64,000 bases of DNA from Chitinophaga pinensis (GTDB lineage Bacteria > Bacteroidota > Bacteroidia > Chitinophagales > Chitinophagaceae), in the NCBI GenBank assembly GCA_945862385.1, contig CAMAXV010000007.1, positions 1 through 64,000 on the forward strand, written 5' to 3'. This document shows, in pieces, positions 7,045-15,000 of this stretch. The notes beneath the pieces are model-generated. The model made no database searches and had not been told where the DNA came from. It saw only the letters and a list, made by a program, of their open reading frames with translations. Both the position numbers and the translations under genes were made by a program. Numbering within the stretch: the first letter of the stretch is position 1; every line of letters starts with the position of its first letter.

Positions 7045-7119
7045 ATGATATCAAACAGAACCCGTTACTTCTTTTATTTTTATTACTACTTTTCCAGTGG
7101 TACGGGAACTTTTTGTTGA
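7045..7119 (+). CDS. Phe/Tyr leader peptide of the aromatic operon
   Basis: A 24-codon frame (ATG to TGA) directly after the promoter. Residues 8-16 read YFFYFYYYF: nine aromatic codons in a row (five Tyr, four Phe). A further Phe is near the end and there is no Trp. The operon that follows makes Phe and Tyr but carries no trp genes, so the codons match the products. Such a run is very unlikely by chance and is the hallmark of ribosome-mediated attenuation: starved ribosomes stall in the aromatic run and alter folding of the RNA before pheA. The peptide itself probably has no other job. Confidence 0.85.
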   Translation: MISNRTRYFFYFYYYFSSGTGTFC

Positions 7120-7180
7120 AAAGAAATAAACAAAAACAACAACATAAAAGATCCCGGCTAACCACCGGGATTTTTTTTTA
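7061..7180 (+). promoter_or_regulatory. Attenuator: alternative RNA pairings in the aromatic operon leader
   Basis: Four segments give a classical attenuator. Segment 1, CCCGTTAC (7061-7068), can pair with segment 2, GTACGGG (7100-7106), with one bulge. Segment 2, CGGGA (7103-7107) plus GGT (7099-7101), can instead pair with segment 3, TCCCG (7152-7156) and ACC (7161-7163). Segment 3 otherwise forms the terminator with segment 4 (7165-7171). A ribosome stalled on the aromatic codons (7066-7092) covers segment 1, frees segment 2 and blocks the terminator. The pairings were found by eye; no energies were computed. Confidence 0.65.
7146..7180 (+). terminator. Terminator hairpin of the aromatic operon attenuator
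   Basis: ATCCCGG (7151-7157) pairs with CCGGGAT (7165-7171), extended by A-T pairs below, and is followed by a run of nine T. It lies 20 bases before pheA, in position to stop transcription before the structural genes. Confidence 0.85.
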
Positions 7181-7190
7181 ATTGTAGGTT

Positions 7191-8057
7191 ATGAATAAAG
7201 CGCATGCTTCAGGAGGCAGAGGACGAGAAACAAGTCTGCCTGTTGCCATACAGGGTTATGAAGGCAGTTTCCATCAGGTTGCTGCAAGAAGTTTTTTGGG
7301 TAAAAAAGTTGAAATTTTGCCATGTGCCACCTTTTCTGAAGTAATCAAATCAGCTTCAGACCCCGCCCTGACTAAGGGGGGTATAATGGCCATAGAAAAT
7401 TCACTTGCAGGAAGCATTATGCCAAACTATAACCTGCTGCAGAAATCAAATCTTTCTGTAATTGGTGAGGTCTACCTGCAAATCGATCAACACCTGATGG
7501 TGAATCCTGATGTTGAGCTTGATCAGATCAGGGAAGTCCATTCTCACCCCATGGCCTTGCAGCAATGCCTCGGTTACCTGAATCAATATCCCTGGAAACT
7601 CATTGAGTCTGAAGATACTGCACTGAGTGCAAAACAACTCATGCTGAAAAAAAGCAAACATACTGCTGCTATTGCAGGAAAGCTTGCGGCGGAGTTGTTT
7701 GGTCTAAAAATCATCACACCCAATATCCATGATGTTAAGCATAATTATACGAGATTTCTGGTCCTCAGCAGAACACCTGAAGTTGTTGATGGTGCCAACA
7801 AGGCATCACTGAACTTTCATACAGATCATGCCAAAGGTAGACTGGCTGAAGTGCTTACGCTGATTGCAGGTGAAGATATCAACCTGAGTAAGCTGCAATC
7901 ATTTCCCATTGCAGGGAGTCAGTTTAAATATGGGTTTCATGCCGACCTTGAATTTGATCACATAGAACAGTTCAATAACCTGTTAAAAAAGCTTGATAAA
8001 AGTACTGAGTACCTGAAAGTGTTGGGTATTTATAAAAAAGGTAAATACAAAAAATAA
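7191..8057 (+). CDS. pheA: Prephenate dehydratase
   Basis: A 288-residue monofunctional enzyme that turns prephenate into phenylpyruvate, the committed step to phenylalanine. Residues about 17-195 form the catalytic domain, opening with VAIQGYEGSFHQVAA and ending in NYTRF, whose Thr-Arg-Phe (187-189) is the conserved active-site motif. Residues about 205-285 form an ACT domain, the usual site of phenylalanine feedback inhibition. No chorismate mutase is fused here; it is on the DAHP synthase. First structural gene after the attenuator, 4 bases from the aminotransferase. Confidence 0.93.
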   Translation: MNKAHASGGRGRETSLPVAIQGYEGSFHQVAARSFLGKKVEILPCATFSEVIKSASDPALTKGGIMAIENSLAGSIMPNYNLLQKSNLSVIGEVYLQIDQHLMVNPDVELDQIREVHSHPMALQQCLGYLNQYPWKLIESEDTALSAKQLMLKKSKHTAAIAGKLAAELFGLKIITPNIHDVKHNYTRFLVLSRTPEVVDGANKASLNFHTDHAKGRLAEVLTLIAGEDINLSKLQSFPIAGSQFKYGFHADLEFDHIEQFNNLLKKLDKSTEYLKVLGIYKKGKYKK

Positions 8058-8061
8058 AGTC

Positions 8062-9252
8062 ATGATTGGGGTAGCTGACAGATTGAATGGTATTGGTGAG
8101 TATTATTTCTCCACCAAACTTCGGGAAATAGAAGCGCTTAATAAGGCTGGTCAACAGGTTATTAACCTGGGAATTGGTAGTCCGGATATGCCTCCCCATC
8201 CTGATGTGGTTCAGACACTCCACGATGAAGCGCTTAAGCCCAATACCCATGCATATCAGTCTTACAAAGGTTCTGCGGTTCTCCGTGATGCTGTTGCAGC
8301 GTTCTATAAGGAATGGTATAAAGTCTCTGTTGATCCGCAGACTGAAGTGCTTCCTCTTATTGGTAGCAAAGAAGGTATTATGCATATTTGCATGACTTAC
8401 TTGAATCAGGGAGACGCAGCCCTTATTCCGAACCCTGGCTATCCTACTTATTCCAGTGCAGTTAAAATTACTGGTGGCGCAGTATTATCATATGGTCTGG
8501 ATGAAGCACATGGATGGCATCCTGTGATCAGCGATTGGGAAAAACTGGTTCAGGATTACCGAAAATCCGGAAAAGGTCAGGTTAAATTGTTGTTCCTGAA
8601 TTACCCGCATATGCCAACCGGCCAACTGCCGGATAAATCATTGCTGGCAGACATCGTAGCATTTGCCAGGCAGGAACAGATTTTAATTATTCATGATAAT
8701 CCCTATAGTTTCATCCTGAATGATGAACCGATGAGCCTTTTTGAATTTGATCCTGAAAAGGAAGTTGTTGTTGAGCTGAATTCATTGAGCAAATCACACA
8801 ATATGGCAGGTTGGCGTGTAGGCATGATTGTGGCAGCGGCAGACCATATCAATGCTATCCTCCGGTTCAAAAGCAATATGGATTCAGGAATGTTTCTGCC
8901 TGTACAGGTAGCTGCAGCGAAAGCCTTGCAGCTCGACAGGAATTGGTTCAATCAGGTAAATGAAATTTACAGCCAAAGAAAACAACAGGCGCTCAGACTC
9001 CTTGATTTACTGGGATGCCGGTATGCTGAAGGTCAGGTTGGCATGTTCGTTTGGGCCCGTATTCCCGCGGAGTATGCATCTGGGTTTGAATTAAGTGACG
9101 CAGTCTTGCAAAAAGCCAGGGTGTTCATTACACCGGGAGGTATTTTTGGAGATGCAGGTAATAATTATGTACGTGTCAGTCTTTGTAGTAAGCAGCATGT
9201 GCTCGAAGAGGCCATTGAAAGGGTAGTTAGTGCAGGTAATCTGAATGTGTAA
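8062..9252 (+). CDS. Class I/II aminotransferase (aromatic operon)
   Basis: A 396-residue fold-type I PLP aminotransferase. The cofactor lysine is in SLSKSHNMAGWRVGM near residue 250, NYPHMPTG is the Asn-Pro region, and the C-terminal arginine that holds the substrate carboxylate is in NYVRVSL. It resembles LL-diaminopimelate and aspartate aminotransferases. Its place between prephenate dehydratase and dehydrogenase suggests that it aminates phenylpyruvate and 4-hydroxyphenylpyruvate, or prephenate, to finish Phe and Tyr (inference from context). A role in lysine or alanine metabolism cannot be excluded. Confidence 0.88.
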   Translation: MIGVADRLNGIGEYYFSTKLREIEALNKAGQQVINLGIGSPDMPPHPDVVQTLHDEALKPNTHAYQSYKGSAVLRDAVAAFYKEWYKVSVDPQTEVLPLIGSKEGIMHICMTYLNQGDAALIPNPGYPTYSSAVKITGGAVLSYGLDEAHGWHPVISDWEKLVQDYRKSGKGQVKLLFLNYPHMPTGQLPDKSLLADIVAFARQEQILIIHDNPYSFILNDEPMSLFEFDPEKEVVVELNSLSKSHNMAGWRVGMIVAAADHINAILRFKSNMDSGMFLPVQVAAAKALQLDRNWFNQVNEIYSQRKQQALRLLDLLGCRYAEGQVGMFVWARIPAEYASGFELSDAVLQKARVFITPGGIFGDAGNNYVRVSLCSKQHVLEEAIERVVSAGNLNV

Positions 9253-9276: not shown

Positions 9277-10122
9277 ATGAAAAGAAATTTTGCCATTGTT
9301 GGAGTAGGTTTGATCGGAGGGTCTGTTGCACTCAAATGCAGGAACATCGGCATGACTGATCGGATTGTGGGGGTTGATAGCAACCTTGAGCACTGCCGGG
9401 AGGCTCTTGAGCTTGGACTTGTTGATGAAATTCTTCCACTTGACCAGGCAATAAAAAAATCAGATATTATTATTCTGGCAGTTCCTGTTGGTGCCCTTGC
9501 CAGCCTTTTGCCTGAAGTACTGAACCAGGTAGATATGCAGGTGGTCATAGATATGGGCTCAACCAAAAGTATGCTGGCTGCATTGGTGCATGATCACCCT
9601 AAGCGTGGACGCTTTGTTGCGGCACATCCAATGTGGGGTACAGAATACAGTGGCCCTTCTGCAGCTGTTGAGCATGCATTTGAACATAAAGCAGTTATCC
9701 TTTGTGATACCAATCAGAGCGATGCTGATGCAGTAGAAAAAGCGCATGAACTTTTTAGGGGCTTATCTATGCGTATCATAGAAATGGATGCAACTTCCCA
9801 TGATTTGCATGCAGCTTATGTAAGTCATATATCACATATTACATCCTTTGCACTGGCAAATACAGTGCTGGAAAAAGAACGGGAAGATGACGCTATTTTT
9901 GAGATGGCCAGTGCTGGTTTTGAAAGTACAGTAAGGCTTGCTAAAAGTAATCCGGATATGTGGACGCCCATACTGATGCAAAACAGGGAAAATGTGCTGG
10001 ATGTGCTAAATGAACATATTTCACAGTTAAGAAAATTTAAGTCATGTCTTGAAAAGGAAAACTGGGATTACCTCCATGAACTCATGACCAATGCCAATCA
10101 GATTCGCAGAATCATTCAATAA
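9277..10122 (+). CDS. tyrA: Prephenate dehydrogenase
   Basis: A 281-residue NAD(P)-dependent enzyme that oxidatively decarboxylates prephenate to 4-hydroxyphenylpyruvate for tyrosine. The Rossmann motif VGVGLIGGSVAL is at residues 8-19. The active-site HPMWGTEYSGP lies near 117, and a conserved helical dimer domain follows (SHISHITSFALA). Length fits the monofunctional family: no chorismate mutase and no C-terminal ACT domain, so feedback control may differ from the fused enzymes. Internal gene of the aromatic operon. Confidence 0.93.
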   Translation: MKRNFAIVGVGLIGGSVALKCRNIGMTDRIVGVDSNLEHCREALELGLVDEILPLDQAIKKSDIIILAVPVGALASLLPEVLNQVDMQVVIDMGSTKSMLAALVHDHPKRGRFVAAHPMWGTEYSGPSAAVEHAFEHKAVILCDTNQSDADAVEKAHELFRGLSMRIIEMDATSHDLHAAYVSHISHITSFALANTVLEKEREDDAIFEMASAGFESTVRLAKSNPDMWTPILMQNRENVLDVLNEHISQLRKFKSCLEKENWDYLHELMTNANQIRRIIQ

Positions 10123-10153: not shown

Positions 10154-11242
10154 ATGGAAACAGCTCAAACAACCCAACAGTCAGCAACTCAGTCAGCCTG
10201 GAATAAACGTCCGCTGATTATTTCAGGCCCTTGCAGTGCCGAAACAGAAGAACAGGTTATTGAAACTGCACAGCGTCTTGCCAAAACAGGAAAAGTTGAT
10301 ATGCTCAGGGCGGGCATCTGGAAGCCCCGCACAAAACCCGGCATGTTCGAAGGAATTGGCGCAAAGGGATTACCCTGGTTACAGCAGGCTAAAAAAATAA
10401 CCGGTTTACCAACAACTGTTGAAGTTGCAACTGGCAAACAGGTTGAAGATGCACTCACTTTTGATGTGGATGTACTTTGGATTGGCGCCCGCACAACAGT
10501 TAACCCCTTCAGTGTTCAGGAAGTGGCAGATGCACTGCGTGGTGTGGATGTGCCTGTATTGATTAAAAATCCGATTAACCCGGATCTTGAATTGTGGCAG
10601 GGAGCTGTTGAAAGGGTTAGCCGCGCTGGTATAAAACAAATCGGACTTATTCACCGTGGATTTTCTTCTTACGGGAATACTGAATTCAGGAATGCCCCAA
10701 TGTGGCACCTGGCTATTGAAATGAAAAGGAGGATGCCTGGTATGCCAATCATCAATGATCCTTCCCATATATGTGGCCGCAGAGATATTTTGCAGGCTAC
10801 CGCTCAGAAAGCGATTGACCTTGATTTCGATGGTCTGATGATTGAGAGTCATATTGATCCGGATAATGCCTGGAGTGATGCCAAGCAACAGATTACACCG
10901 GAGCGTCTTGCTGAAATGCTGGATGAAATCAGCTGGAGGAGCGAAGATGTTCCTTCCGAATCATTCCATGCTGCACTGGATAAGCTAAGAGAGCAAATCA
11001 ATCATGTGGATGATGAACTCATGCAACTGCTTGCACAGCGTATGAACATTGCTGAAAAAATTGGTGAATACAAGAAAAACAATAATGTTACCATCCTGCA
11101 GGCTGGTCGCTGGAACGAATTGCGTGATAAAGCAATCGGTAAAGCTGTAAGACTCAACCTGAGTGAAGATTTCATTGAAAAATATATGGATGCTGTACAT
11201 ATGGAAAGCATCAACAGGCAGAACAAGATTATGAATGCCTGA
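10154..11242 (+). CDS. Bifunctional DAHP synthase / chorismate mutase
   Basis: A 362-residue fusion. Residues about 18-265 form a type I-beta DAHP synthase (ISGPCSAETEEQ, RAGIWKPRTKPG, GLMIESHIDPDNAWSD), which condenses PEP and erythrose 4-phosphate in the first shikimate step. Residues about 275-360 form an AroQ chorismate mutase (LDKLREQINHVDDELMQLL, IGEYKK). The fusion joins the first step of the pathway to the branch leading to prephenate. In such fusions the mutase part often passes feedback from prephenate or chorismate to the synthase (known from related enzymes). The domain order is the usual one in Bacteroidota. Confidence 0.93.
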   Translation: METAQTTQQSATQSAWNKRPLIISGPCSAETEEQVIETAQRLAKTGKVDMLRAGIWKPRTKPGMFEGIGAKGLPWLQQAKKITGLPTTVEVATGKQVEDALTFDVDVLWIGARTTVNPFSVQEVADALRGVDVPVLIKNPINPDLELWQGAVERVSRAGIKQIGLIHRGFSSYGNTEFRNAPMWHLAIEMKRRMPGMPIINDPSHICGRRDILQATAQKAIDLDFDGLMIESHIDPDNAWSDAKQQITPERLAEMLDEISWRSEDVPSESFHAALDKLREQINHVDDELMQLLAQRMNIAEKIGEYKKNNNVTILQAGRWNELRDKAIGKAVRLNLSEDFIEKYMDAVHMESINRQNKIMNA

Positions 11243-11255
11243 TTAGTTATTCATT

Positions 11256-11684
11256 ATGATGCAGGTTTACCTATATGTGCATGTCATCTGGTCTACGGCA
11301 GAAAGATTGAGGGTCCTTGCCAAACCTGTTCGTGTAGTGCTTTTCACGCACTTACGTAAATATGGGGAAGAAAAGGGAATCAGGATTTTAAAGGCCGATG
11401 GAGCAGAAGAGCATGCACACCTGCTGCTGCAATTACATCCAGCGCAAAACCTGTCTCAGGTTTTGCGCCAGTTGAAATCTGAGTCAGAAGAATGGCTGAA
11501 TGGTGCTCAATTGCTTAAAACACAGTTCAGCTGGTCAGACGAATTGATTGCCTATTCAGTGAGCCCGGGCTCATTGCAGCAGGTTATCGGTTTCATAGAA
11601 AGGCAGGATGAATACCATCAAACGAGATCCTTTGAATCTGAAATCGAAGGATTCCTGAAAATGGATAAAGAGGGAAATACATGA
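11256..11684 (+). CDS. IS200-like (Y1 HUH) transposase-family protein lacking the catalytic Tyr
   Basis: A 142-residue protein with the single-domain fold of IS200/IS605 TnpA and REP-associated transposases. The metal-binding HUH pair is intact (EEHAHLLLQL, His53 and His55), as is the region SVSPGSLQQVIGFIERQDEYH. In active family members the nucleophile is the Tyr of a YxxxQ motif; here that position is Phe113, with the Gln (117) kept. DNA cleavage is therefore unlikely. The gene is 13 bases after the DAHP synthase gene and its stop overlaps the aroB start (ATGA), with no terminal repeats or disruption. It looks like a stable operon member, possibly a nucleic-acid hairpin binder. Function unknown. 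Confidence 0.82.
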   Translation: MMQVYLYVHVIWSTAERLRVLAKPVRVVLFTHLRKYGEEKGIRILKADGAEEHAHLLLQLHPAQNLSQVLRQLKSESEEWLNGAQLLKTQFSWSDELIAYSVSPGSLQQVIGFIERQDEYHQTRSFESEIEGFLKMDKEGNT

Positions 11685-12712
11685 CAAAAAGAACTTATCG
11701 CTTCTCGAGTGCACCTGTTGACGTTTACTTCGATGCCAATTTCCGGCAGCTTGAAAAGCTGGTAGATAAGAAGAAGGGGATTATCATTACCGACGAAAAT
11801 ATATTTTCAGCGCATCATAGCAAATTCAAAAACTGGAATGTAATCACCTTAAAGCCTGGGGAGCAGTTTAAGATTCAGGCTACGGCAGACAGTGTCATCG
11901 AACAATTGATTGCTCTGGAGGCAGACAGGCAATCTGTATTGATCGGTGTTGGTGGCGGAGTAGTAACAGACCTTACCGGTTATGTGGCTTCAATCTACAT
12001 GCGGGGCATTCGTTTTGGGTTTGTACCCACTTCCATGCTGGCCATGGTGGATGCCTCCATTGGCGGAAAGAATGGGATAGATGTGGGAGAATACAAAAAT
12101 ATGGTGGGCATCATCCGTCAACCTTCATTCCTGTTTTATGATTCTTCCCTACTGTCTACTTTGCCGGAAAAGGAATGGTCTAATGGGTTTGCAGAAATAA
12201 TAAAACATGCCTGTATACTTGACAGGCCCATGTTTAAATTACTTGAATCTACTTCGTTGGATAAACTGCGAAAGAAAAAATCACTGCTGGATGATATCAT
12301 CCGCCGCAATGTTCACCTGAAATCAGGTGTTGTTAAGCGTGATGAATTTGAACAGGGAGACAGGAAACTGCTCAACTTTGGTCATACACTGGGGCATGCA
12401 CTGGAAACGCAATATGAACTCACTCACGGACAGGCAGTAGCGCTGGGAATGATTTTTGCAGGCTGGCTATCAGCAAAATTACTTGGTTACAAGGATTTAA
12501 ACAGACTGGAAACAACAATTGCAACATACGGCCTTCCAACCCGTGCCTCATTTGACGTGGAAAAAGTATTCAACGTACTTAAAATGGATAAGAAAAGGGT
12601 AAGTAAAACCATGAACTATATTTTACTTAGTCGCACCGGCAAAGGTGAAATTGTCCAGATCCCTGTTGAAGACCTCAGGGGTTATTTAACTGAATTTAAT
12701 GCACTGAAATAA
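11681..12712 (+). CDS. aroB: 3-Dehydroquinate synthase
   Basis: A 343-residue NAD- and zinc-dependent enzyme that closes DAHP into 3-dehydroquinate. It shows the NAD-binding GVGGGVVTDLTGYVAS near residues 86-101, the active-site segment VPTSMLAMVDASIGGKNG, and zinc ligands in EIIKHACI and FGHTLGHALE plus the HGQAVALGM helix. The start codon overlaps the stop of the IS200-like gene by four bases, so translation is probably coupled. Length is normal. Confidence 0.95.
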   Translation: MTKRTYRFSSAPVDVYFDANFRQLEKLVDKKKGIIITDENIFSAHHSKFKNWNVITLKPGEQFKIQATADSVIEQLIALEADRQSVLIGVGGGVVTDLTGYVASIYMRGIRFGFVPTSMLAMVDASIGGKNGIDVGEYKNMVGIIRQPSFLFYDSSLLSTLPEKEWSNGFAEIIKHACILDRPMFKLLESTSLDKLRKKKSLLDDIIRRNVHLKSGVVKRDEFEQGDRKLLNFGHTLGHALETQYELTHGQAVALGMIFAGWLSAKLLGYKDLNRLETTIATYGLPTRASFDVEKVFNVLKMDKKRVSKTMNYILLSRTGKGEIVQIPVEDLRGYLTEFNALK

Positions 12713-12717
12713 TAAAA

Positions 12718-13995
12718 ATGATTGTAACAATAAGTCCATCCGCTGTTTCAGGCAATATCCGTGCACCAAGATCCAAAAGTGATATGCAAAGGGCCTGTGC
12801 AGCTGCCCTCTTGCATCATGGTGAAACCCGAATCACAGACCCGGGCCGTAGCAATGATGATAAAGCTGCCATGGATGTTATTGCCAAACTGGGGGCAACA
12901 GTTGAGGATCTGGGTCATGCTATTCTGGTTAAGAGCGATGGTGTTAATCCTTTGCATGAGATGATTCATTGTGGGGAAAGTGGACTGGGTATCAGGATGT
13001 TTACTCCTATCGCTGCATTAAGTGAAAAGCCACTTACTATCAGCGGAACAGGCTCACTGGTTACAAGGCCTATGGGTTTTTTTGACGAGATATTCCCTCA
13101 ACTCCATATCAGCATCAAATCACAGTCTGGTAAGCTCCCGCTCCATATACAGGGTCCGCTTCAGCCTGCAACAATTGAAGTAGATGGTAGTCTCAGTTCA
13201 CAATTCCTAACAGGATTGCTGATGGCCTATTCAGCCTCCGGTGCATCGGGTGTAACCATACAGGTAAAAGACCTGAAAAGTAAACCCTATATAGACCTAA
13301 CGCTTTCTGTGTTGAAGTCATTTGATATGAAGGTGCCTCAGGTGGTCAATTATGAATCCTTTGTTTTCGATGAAACACCACATTCACAGCCAACCGGAGA
13401 TTTCACCTATGAGGTTGAAGGCGATTGGAGTGGTGCCGCATTCCTCTTTGTTGCTGGAGCTATTGCAGGTGAAACCACCATTCAGGGAATGAAACATGAT
13501 TCTGTGCAGGCCGACAAAAAAATTCTGGAGGCAATCAGAGATGCCGGTGCTGGTCTTTCCTATGCCAATGGCAATTATACCGTTTCGCCATCACAGCTAC
13601 AGTCATTCGATTTTGATGCTACTGAATGCCCGGATCTGTTCCCCCCACTCGTTGCACTTGCTGCATACTGTAATGGTATTACCAGGATAAAAGGAGCAAG
13701 CAGGTTAACCCACAAGGAAAGCAACAGGGCGGTTACACTGCAGGATGTTTTTGGTAAAATGGGTATTACTATTGTTCTTGAAGAAGATATGATGCTGGTT
13801 TATGGGGGAACTGCCCTGCATGGTGCCGAAGTTTCTTCACACCACGACCATCGAATAGCCATGGCTGCAGCTGTAGCTGCACTTCGTGCAGCCGGTCCGG
13901 TAAGTATTAGTGACGCACAGGCAATAGACAAGTCATATCCTGATTTTTACCAGCACCTTGAGCTGCTTGGCACCACCATAAACTCAACCAAATAA
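12718..13995 (+). CDS. aroA: 3-Phosphoshikimate 1-carboxyvinyltransferase (EPSP synthase)
   Basis: A 425-residue enzyme that adds the enolpyruvyl group of PEP to shikimate 3-phosphate. Recognisable parts are the start (VSGNIRAPRSKSDMQRA, with the conserved Lys-Ser), CGESGLGIRMFTPIAAL, and the C-terminal DHRIAMAAAVAALRA. The first signature usually reads LPGSKS; here it is APRSKS, a modest change. Likewise SGLGIRM stands where many enzymes have SGT/AxxR; the arginine is kept. Fifth of the shikimate or chorismate genes in this operon, 5 bases after aroB. Confidence 0.93.
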   Translation: MIVTISPSAVSGNIRAPRSKSDMQRACAAALLHHGETRITDPGRSNDDKAAMDVIAKLGATVEDLGHAILVKSDGVNPLHEMIHCGESGLGIRMFTPIAALSEKPLTISGTGSLVTRPMGFFDEIFPQLHISIKSQSGKLPLHIQGPLQPATIEVDGSLSSQFLTGLLMAYSASGASGVTIQVKDLKSKPYIDLTLSVLKSFDMKVPQVVNYESFVFDETPHSQPTGDFTYEVEGDWSGAAFLFVAGAIAGETTIQGMKHDSVQADKKILEAIRDAGAGLSYANGNYTVSPSQLQSFDFDATECPDLFPPLVALAAYCNGITRIKGASRLTHKESNRAVTLQDVFGKMGITIVLEEDMMLVYGGTALHGAEVSSHHDHRIAMAAAVAALRAAGPVSISDAQAIDKSYPDFYQHLELLGTTINSTK

Positions 13996-14004
13996 AGCGT
14001 AATC

Positions 14005-15000
14005 ATGAATCATTTTGGAAACCTTTTTTCGGTAAGTATTTTCGGGGAATCGCATGGTGAAGGTTTGGGTATGGTGATAGATGGATGTCCCGCGGGGATG
14101 CCTTTATCCACAGAAGATTTTATAGAAGATACCACAAGAAGAAAGGGGGGTACTCAAAAAGGGGTAACACCCAGGCAGGAGGAAGATTTGCCTTTGTTCA
14201 AAAGTGGGCTATTCAATGGTAAAACAACAGGAGCACCACTTATGCTCCTGTTTGAAAATAAGAATACCAGATCTGGAGATTATGAAAAGCAAAGGGCTTT
14301 TCCGCGTCCCGGGCATGCTGACCTGGTTGCGCACCACAAGTATGGTGGGTTTGAGGATTTCAGGGGAGGCGGACATTTCAGTGGAAGATTAACATTGTGT
14401 CTGGTAGCTGCAGGTGTAGTTGCAAAAAAAATACTGAATGGTATTCAGGTAAATGCAAAGGTCATTTCCATCGGCGGTGATGCTGACCTGGAACGCGGTT
14501 TGCAAAGGGCTATAGACCAGAAAGATTCGGTAGGTGGGGTAGTGGAATGCAGGGTAACAGGACTTCCACTGGGGCTGGGTGAACCTTTTTTTGATTCTGT
14601 AGAATCTTTGCTATCCCATGCAGTATTTGCCATTCCGGCTGTCAGGGGAATTGAATTTGGAACCGGATTCAAAGCTGCAGAAATGTATGGTGTTGAGCAT
14701 AATGATCCCATTCAGGATATCCAGGGTACAACCACTACCAACCATGCAGGTGGTATTGTTGGGGGTATTACCAATGGGAATGAGCTAGTTTTCAGAATCG
14801 CCATCAAACCTACCTCTTCAACACCCAAAGATCAGTTTACCTACAATTGGGAAACAGATCAAATGGATACATTTGCGGTTCGTGGCAGACATGACCTTTG
14901 TATAGCATTACGTGTGCCACCTGTTTTGGAGGCATCAGCTGCAATTGTACTGGCAGACCTGATGTTGAGAGAACAAAAAATCAAAAGAGTATTGAATTAA
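14005..15000 (+). CDS. aroC: Chorismate synthase
   Basis: A 331-residue enzyme that removes phosphate from EPSP to give chorismate using reduced FMN. It has SIFGESHGEGLGMVIDGCPAG at the start, RPGHAD and GGGHFSGRLT in the middle, and NHAGGIVGGITNGNEL near the C-terminus. It is slightly shorter than typical 350-365-residue enzymes, by trimmed loops rather than lost motifs. It closes the aromatic operon. Genes for dehydroquinase, shikimate dehydrogenase and shikimate kinase are not in the window. No terminator was seen in the 38 bases before the convergent gene. Confidence 0.95.
   Translation: MNHFGNLFSVSIFGESHGEGLGMVIDGCPAGMPLSTEDFIEDTTRRKGGTQKGVTPRQEEDLPLFKSGLFNGKTTGAPLMLLFENKNTRSGDYEKQRAFPRPGHADLVAHHKYGGFEDFRGGGHFSGRLTLCLVAAGVVAKKILNGIQVNAKVISIGGDADLERGLQRAIDQKDSVGGVVECRVTGLPLGLGEPFFDSVESLLSHAVFAIPAVRGIEFGTGFKAAEMYGVEHNDPIQDIQGTTTTNHAGGIVGGITNGNELVFRIAIKPTSSTPKDQFTYNWETDQMDTFAVRGRHDLCIALRVPPVLEASAAIVLADLMLREQKIKRVLN

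Follow-up and report, generated by a model that had tools for sequence, protein, structure and literature searches.

The closest described relatives of the protein reported here belong to the TnpA Y1 family. Those passages of the survey by Quentin et al. (2018; PMC6006769) that concern its subclass 1.2 describe an IS200-like Y---Q core, low copy number, a general lack of typical IS200 ends and an occurrence in Bacteroidetes, and the passages of the same survey on core motifs place the Gln together with the HUH histidines in the metal site, retain those proteins that carry the HuH as well as the Y motif, which are held most likely to function, and consider copies lacking core motifs probably non-functional. 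Domestication of a Y1 protein has a precedent in TnpAREP/RAYT, which the portion of PMC8266576 that deals with it portrays as closer to a housekeeping gene than to a transposase; for three TnpAREP proteins, the same portion describes Tyr-to-Phe mutants that lacked either the cleavage product or the strand-transfer amplification. A corresponding laboratory mutant of ISDra2 TnpA, Y132F, was solved with DNA (2xo6).

Here we describe a member of this family, protein X, which is encoded in the aromatic amino acid operon of the window (the whole stretch of DNA that was analysed, 64,000 nucleotides from Chitinophaga pinensis). With the IS200/IS605 TnpA proteins of IS608 and ISDra2 (subclass 1.1) it shares the predicted fold, the HUH pair, the metal-binding Gln and a Trp, but unlike them the window copy has neither the nucleophilic Tyr nor hairpin ends and occupies a fixed place. 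Its likeness to subclass 1.2 lies in the two Y1_Tnp genes of its genome, the lack of a shared flank repeat and the Chitinophagaceae hosts. Unlike that subclass, whose Y---Q--HH signature is carried by the free-standing relatives in our alignment, the X clade is fixed between aroG and aroB, often has Phe for Tyr, usually has YH for HH, and has a fixed Pro104. Like TnpAREP, X is a domesticated Y1 protein, but it has a Gln117 of the YxxxQ type and no REP link was found for it in the one palindrome family that was followed, whereas TnpAREP is of class 2 (Y---NP), is associated with REPs and has been shown to cleave. Finally, X carries the same Tyr-to-Phe change as 2xo6, with the difference that in the X clade it arose in nature and more than once. 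From subclass 1.2, the closest described group, the X clade is set apart by its operon place, its Tyr/Phe exchange and its altered HH motif. The passages of PMC6006769 that describe subclass 1.2 contain no X-like operon group, and none of the papers found by searching the open-access literature treats, by its title or abstract, the arrangement aroG-X-aroB.

Identity of X and its place in the operon

The operon runs on the forward strand from prephenate dehydratase through an aminotransferase, prephenate dehydrogenase, aroG, X, aroB and aroA to aroC (Table 1), the identities of the neighbouring genes being confirmed by Pfam and NCBIfam. The spacing described by the sequence-only reading was verified in the window itself: X starts 13 nt past the stop of the DAHP synthase/chorismate mutase gene aroG (11242), and its TGA overlaps the ATG of aroB (11681) as ATGA.

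Table 1. Coordinates of the operon, of its leader and of the motifs of X in the window, with one free-standing relative
Feature	Position	Strand	Remarks
Attenuator leader peptide MISNRTRYFFYFYYYFSSGTGTFC, with RYFFYFYYYF	7045..7119	+	same operon, not specific to X
Attenuator intrinsic terminator	7146..7181	+	
Prephenate dehydratase	7191..8057	+	
Class I/II aminotransferase	8062..9252	+	
Prephenate dehydrogenase	9277..10122	+	
aroG, DAHP synthase/chorismate mutase fusion	10154..11242	+	upstream of X wherever the stretch reaches
X, operon-resident Y1_Tnp-derived protein, 142 aa, Phe113 replacing the nucleophilic Tyr	11256..11684	+	ORF, Pfam, alignments
HUH motif of X, codons 53-55 (His-Ala-His)	11412..11420	+	both His in 60/60 distinct orthologues
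Codon 113 of X, TTC (Phe)	11592..11594	+	aligns to Tyr132 of ISDra2 TnpA; 43 Tyr / 17 Phe among 60 orthologues
Codon 117 of X, CAG (Gln of YxxxQ)	11604..11606	+	60/60 orthologues
aroB, 3-dehydroquinate synthase	11681..12712	+	downstream of X wherever the stretch reaches
aroA (EPSP synthase)	12718..13995	+	
aroC (chorismate synthase)	14005..15000	+	
L200, free-standing relative	about 1504-1908 of L200	-	

X matches the Pfam model Y1_Tnp (PF01797) with an E value of 7.7e-18 and 65.2 bits (cut-off 23), falls slightly under the cut-off of the NCBIfam IS200/IS605 equivalog NF033573 (51.4 bits, cut-off 55), and is a poor match to the NCBIfam model REP_Tyr_transpos (19.8 bits, cut-off 80). When X is aligned with IS200-type TnpA proteins of known structure, its segment FIERQ corresponds to YIESQ of ISDra2 TnpA, to YIENQ of IS608 TnpA and to FIESQ of 2xo6, which identifies Phe113 as the nucleophile position of X and confirms the earlier claim that the HUH pair (His53/His55) and the Gln are kept while Phe113 stands at the place of the Tyr. 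The structure of X predicted from 24 sequences (mean pLDDT 89.4, pTM 0.82) appears closest, by its best Foldseek matches in the PDB, to ISDra2 and IS608 TnpA, mostly in DNA complexes and with 2xo6 among them. Besides X, the genome of the window holds one other Y1_Tnp gene, which is unlinked and carries the Tyr.

The order aroG-X-aroB was found in 67 of 71 operon loci, the other four, L058 among them, reaching one neighbour only. These 71 loci include some genomes that were fetched twice and yield 60 distinct orthologues, with identical proteins and L058 (cut by a contig end) left out; L061 (in-frame stop codon) was also dropped from the counts. At L024 / L058, X is truncated at a contig end and its tail has diverged after about residue 80, which may reflect either the edge of the assembly or a true disruption of the gene.

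Distribution, descent and flanking sequences

Of the 394 genomes in the Chitinophagaceae sample 44 carry X, which occurs in 13 of the 101 genera; within the window's genus it is present in 21 of 41 genomes, to which one truncated copy can be added. Its hosts are metagenome-assembled genomes (MAGs) of Chitinophagaceae and other Bacteroidetes, Pollutibacter soli, two Pseudoflavitalea and one Niastella MAG. When a profile of the orthologues was run on 396 genomes of the order, the best 15 matches (162.9-235 bits) all lay between aroG and aroB and were separated by a clear score gap from the next 15 matches fetched (134 bits or less), none of which lay there. Among 395 genomes of the phylum, nothing outside the family scored above 136 bits, and the five best matches from outside it (L200-L204) do not lie beside aro genes. 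The earlier reading had allowed for a gene restricted to the window's strain and flanked by mobile-element ends; instead, 60 orthologues share the same operon place.

The arrangement that lacks X was followed in 30 aroB stretches from 29 genomes, picked since most of them were X-less: all 24 stretches that contain both aroG and aroB have no X between the two. In 14 genomes of the window's genus aroG directly adjoins aroB, and gaps of up to about 190 nt occur elsewhere in the family. As about half of the genus does without X, the gene must be dispensable in some settings.

In a tree with ten free-standing relatives the 60 distinct operon proteins form one clade with 100/100 support, the same result as in an earlier tree of 36 operon proteins and 27 free-standing rows (26 distinct; again 100/100), and a single origin of the operon clade is well supported. 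A tree of aroB, built by a quick method from 58 of the 60 X loci and 22 X-less ones (two X loci and some X-less ones being dropped for incomplete aroB), shows broadly the same groups as the X tree. Mapped onto it, the presence and absence of X require at least nine changes, of which starred branches alone force four; many inner branches of this tree are weak, which makes the count of losses uncertain and leaves room for some transfer. Inheritance that was mainly vertical, with repeated loss, is indicated.

The flanks of X differ from those of its free-standing relatives. A repeat of at least 16 nt common to both flanks was found at 16 of the 29 free-standing loci (15 of 28 once L021 and L078, the same gene fetched twice, are counted as one) and at 0 of 67 operon loci, in a comparison from which loci with less than 150 nt of flank were dropped, in which the operon count includes same-genome duplicates, and in which shared repeats are less likely at operon loci because their flanks are coding. 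The X gene of the window has no such repeat, in keeping with the earlier remark that X bears no sign of recent insertion, and the broader proposal of a domesticated protein resident in the operon is upheld by the single clade, the fixed place, the lack of shared flank repeats and the purifying selection described below.

Several of the repeats that flank free-standing relatives contain a hairpin. We considered whether these relatives are REPtrons and rejected the idea on the example of L091 and L085, where the genome contains exactly two copies of the flanking hairpin, both beside the gene, an arrangement that resembles element ends. By their sequence the free-standing relatives look like small hairpin-ended elements, and X does not. 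At L022, L030, L085, L089, L091 and others the same flank sequence stands on both sides of the gene, despite the general lack of IS200 ends described for subclass 1.2; free-standing relatives with repeated flanks may be unrecognised single-copy elements.

Position 113 and selection on the active site

Across the 60 distinct orthologues, residue 113 is Tyr (TAT/TAC) in 43 and Phe (TTT/TTC) in 17, with no other residue in any. The description of X as lacking its nucleophile therefore fits the window copy and the 16 further distinct orthologues with Phe and fails for the group, most of which keeps the Tyr; the check proposed earlier, whether Phe replaces Tyr throughout the homologues beside aroB, gave a negative answer. 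Tyr and Phe have exchanged at least six times on an X tree computed with column 113 omitted, where starred branches force four of the changes, and six times on the aroB tree; some of these changes may be reversals. Among the free-standing relatives, which serve as outgroup, the nucleophile position is Tyr in 27 of 27 rows (26 distinct), so that Tyr113 is taken as ancestral. Of five further free-standing relatives four have Tyr and one, L200, has His (KHIDNQEEHH), and the excess of non-Tyr residues in the operon proteins (17 of 60, vs 1 of 32 free-standing rows) gives P = 0.005 with relatedness ignored. None of the single-base neighbours of Tyr counted (His, Asn, Asp, Ser, Cys) occurs at position 113 in the 60 proteins, which suggests that the aromatic ring is needed and the hydroxyl is not.

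Around this position the site is frozen. His9, Gly49, His53, His55, Trp93, Pro104, Gln117, His121 and Glu129 are invariant in all 60 orthologues, the C-terminal Glu129 being common to X and its free-standing relatives, and the other conserved active-site residues are kept in all 17 Phe113 proteins. Residue 120 is His in 13 of the 60; the window has F---Q--YH. Estimates of dN/dS range from 0.026 to 0.141 in pairs of Phe copies (n=9) and from 0.041 to 0.102 in pairs of Tyr copies (n=6), as obtained by a simple counting method from pairs that overlap and are not independent, with three pairs of saturated dS left out. Purifying selection is similar on Phe113 and Tyr113 copies, and the protein evolves faster than aroG and, in several pairs, faster than aroB. 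Because selection maintains X also in lineages whose cutting residue has been replaced, it probably has a different job.

The explanation that we consider best, held as a whole with a confidence somewhat short of even, is that X is a long-domesticated IS200-like protein of single origin whose function depends on the HUH site, is independent of cleavage and is predicted to consist in nucleic-acid binding. One IS200-like (TnpA Y1) gene would have lost its mobile ends and settled in the aromatic amino acid operon of an ancestor of several Chitinophagaceae genera, to descend from there mainly vertically and with repeated loss. The conserved function would reside in the metal-binding HUH/Gln site and the aromatic ring at position 113 rather than in the DNA-attacking hydroxyl of a Tyr, which is indicated to be unnecessary because Tyr and Phe exchanged repeatedly while the rest of the site stayed fixed. 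X would then be a metal-dependent protein that holds small single-stranded or hairpin nucleic acids, acting by binding and not by cutting and rejoining; as a putative general property, hairpin or single-strand binding is plausible. Against this explanation, cleavage may still matter in the Tyr113 orthologues, since 43 of 60 keep the Tyr. Also counted against it are the Tyr at 100 or 120 in every Phe113 protein, the faster protein evolution of X relative to aroG and, in several pairs, to aroB, its absence from about half of the genus, and the failure of the candidate targets considered below.

The same majority of Tyr speaks for a serious though unlikely alternative, according to which X is an active single-strand DNA nickase/ligase wherever Tyr113 is kept, while the Phe lineages show partial degeneration and are in the course of losing the gene. 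Several genomes without X do stand beside or within the window's Phe clade on the aroB tree, as if loss of the Tyr preceded loss of the gene. This alternative is nevertheless weakened by purifying selection that acts alike on Phe and Tyr copies, by the retention of the other conserved active-site residues in 17 of 17 Phe copies, by Phe as the sole replacement of Tyr among 60 proteins, and by the absence of a repeat common to both flanks at all 67 operon loci tested.

A fold recruited for contacts with protein is a distinctly less probable reading: the ferredoxin-like domain would pair with AroG or AroB or regulate one of them, and the HUH residues would hold a structural metal or a ligand. It would account for the unbroken linkage to aroG and aroB over 13 genera and for the failure of the candidates considered below to provide a nucleic-acid target. 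The conserved residues, however, are largely those of the nucleic-acid active site of the parent family and outline no new surface; by the thresholds used, Pro62 and Pro104 are the only positions conserved in the operon proteins but not in their relatives.

We consider it improbable that another Tyr has become the nucleophile in the Phe lineages, a possibility that the sequence-only reading had raised for residues 100 and 120. Tyr120 is present in 16 and Tyr100 in 14 of the 17 Phe113 proteins, and each of the 17 keeps at least one of them, as this reading would demand; neither, however, is universal, since Tyr100 is replaced by Leu in L050, L065 and L134 and Tyr120 by His in L139. Both residues are also found in Tyr113 proteins (26 of 43 each, by subtraction) and therefore did not arise with the loss of Tyr113.

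There is very little to recommend X as a spacer, as a translational coupler of aroB or as a hitch-hiking remnant without protein function. The short distances in the window, 13 nt and then the ATGA overlap, would suit such a role, and coupling of aroB translation had been proposed earlier; but X overlaps aroB in just 8 of 60 distinct orthologues, with gaps that reach 244 nt, so that coupling alone is not supported. In each of the 15 pairs with a finite estimate dN/dS lies below 0.15, which together with the invariance of the active-site residues speaks for a functional protein, and genomes without X manage with aroG directly followed by aroB.

Candidate nucleic-acid targets and the role of X

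If X binds nucleic acid, the leader of its own operon is an obvious candidate, and had been named as such from the sequence. This leader has the layout of a Phe/Tyr-type transcription attenuator, with a leader peptide, alternative pairings and a terminator, and it matches the Rfam family Phe_leader (RF01859) over its full length with 39.6 bits (E 5.9e-4), a score below the gathering score of 55, for which reason automatic annotation may overlook it. The leader peptide is present in all X-bearing loci with the upstream stretch available; a strict terminator search gave no hit in L047 and L198, and in L197 and L199 its hits were confined to stems that lie upstream of the leader. In nine of the nine X-less members of the genus that were checked (L181-L189), the dehydratase gene is likewise preceded by a comparable leader peptide and a terminator. 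The attenuator is therefore independent of X, and its role as the target of X is not supported. X is presumably expressed under this attenuator, and would in that case be made in step with the demand for aromatic amino acids.

A second candidate was a dispersed hairpin, CCCCTCCT, of the palindromic element CCCCTCCTGNNCAGGAGGGG, the one palindrome family that was followed, which had come to light in 455 kb sampled from the genome. The window's genome contains 64 copies of it, many of them paired 155 nt apart; there is no match in the window, an example site being positions 4972-5146 of contig C1 of that genome, G000 (L178). Elsewhere in the genus the palindrome occurs 50 times in G027, 1-16 times in six other genomes and not at all in the remaining 33 of 41. 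It was rejected as a target of X, since it occurs in 4 of the 21 X-bearing members of the genus and in 4 of the 20 others (P = 1.0), where G034, which has a truncated copy of X at a contig end and no CCCCTCCT hairpin, was counted as X-less. That X is a RAYT-like protein which spreads or binds dispersed palindromes (REPs), a reading to which the TnpAREP precedent (in the pertinent parts of PMC6006769 and PMC8266576) and the 64 hairpin copies might lead, is accordingly most improbable, given this even distribution, a motif of the type YxxxQ and not YxxxNP, and a score far under the cut-off of the REP model.

Closer to the gene, long hairpins are found in the aroG-X gaps of L141-L144, L146-L149 and L160 and in the X-aroB gap of L155. 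Several consist of 7-nt periodic repeats, and hairpins with periods of 7 and 8 nt also occur elsewhere in the loci of these genomes; as a whole, the long gap hairpins come from a single genus plus a few further loci. A conserved RNA element in the gaps was rejected by inspection and the hairpins were taken as background, because similar ones lie elsewhere in the loci and many gaps are shorter than 40 nt. Profiles of synonymous sites, examined for an RNA embedded in the coding sequence of X, showed no clear peak and were slightly higher at the gene ends in two groups. Thus, no nucleic-acid target of X was found among the attenuator, the CCCCTCCT hairpin, the gap hairpins and an embedded RNA.

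Within the favoured explanation of a binding protein that does not cleave, a more specific version would make X a putative dedicated regulator, tied to aromatic supply, whose lineages repeatedly discard the nucleophile; we regard this version as doubtful, though worth entertaining. For the family at large, members of which get named transposases by domain models, the at least six Tyr/Phe changes, the frozen site, the purifying selection and the fixed place make the case that an HUH protein without its Tyr can be a working protein of the cell. The natural Tyr and Phe orthologues constitute a comparison set for HUH function without strand cleavage, with Pollutibacter soli (Tyr) and Pseudoflavitalea (Phe) as entry points for the laboratory. 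If the more specific version, that of a dedicated regulator, is true, X would show how an enzyme that cuts was turned in nature, and repeatedly, into a protein that binds.
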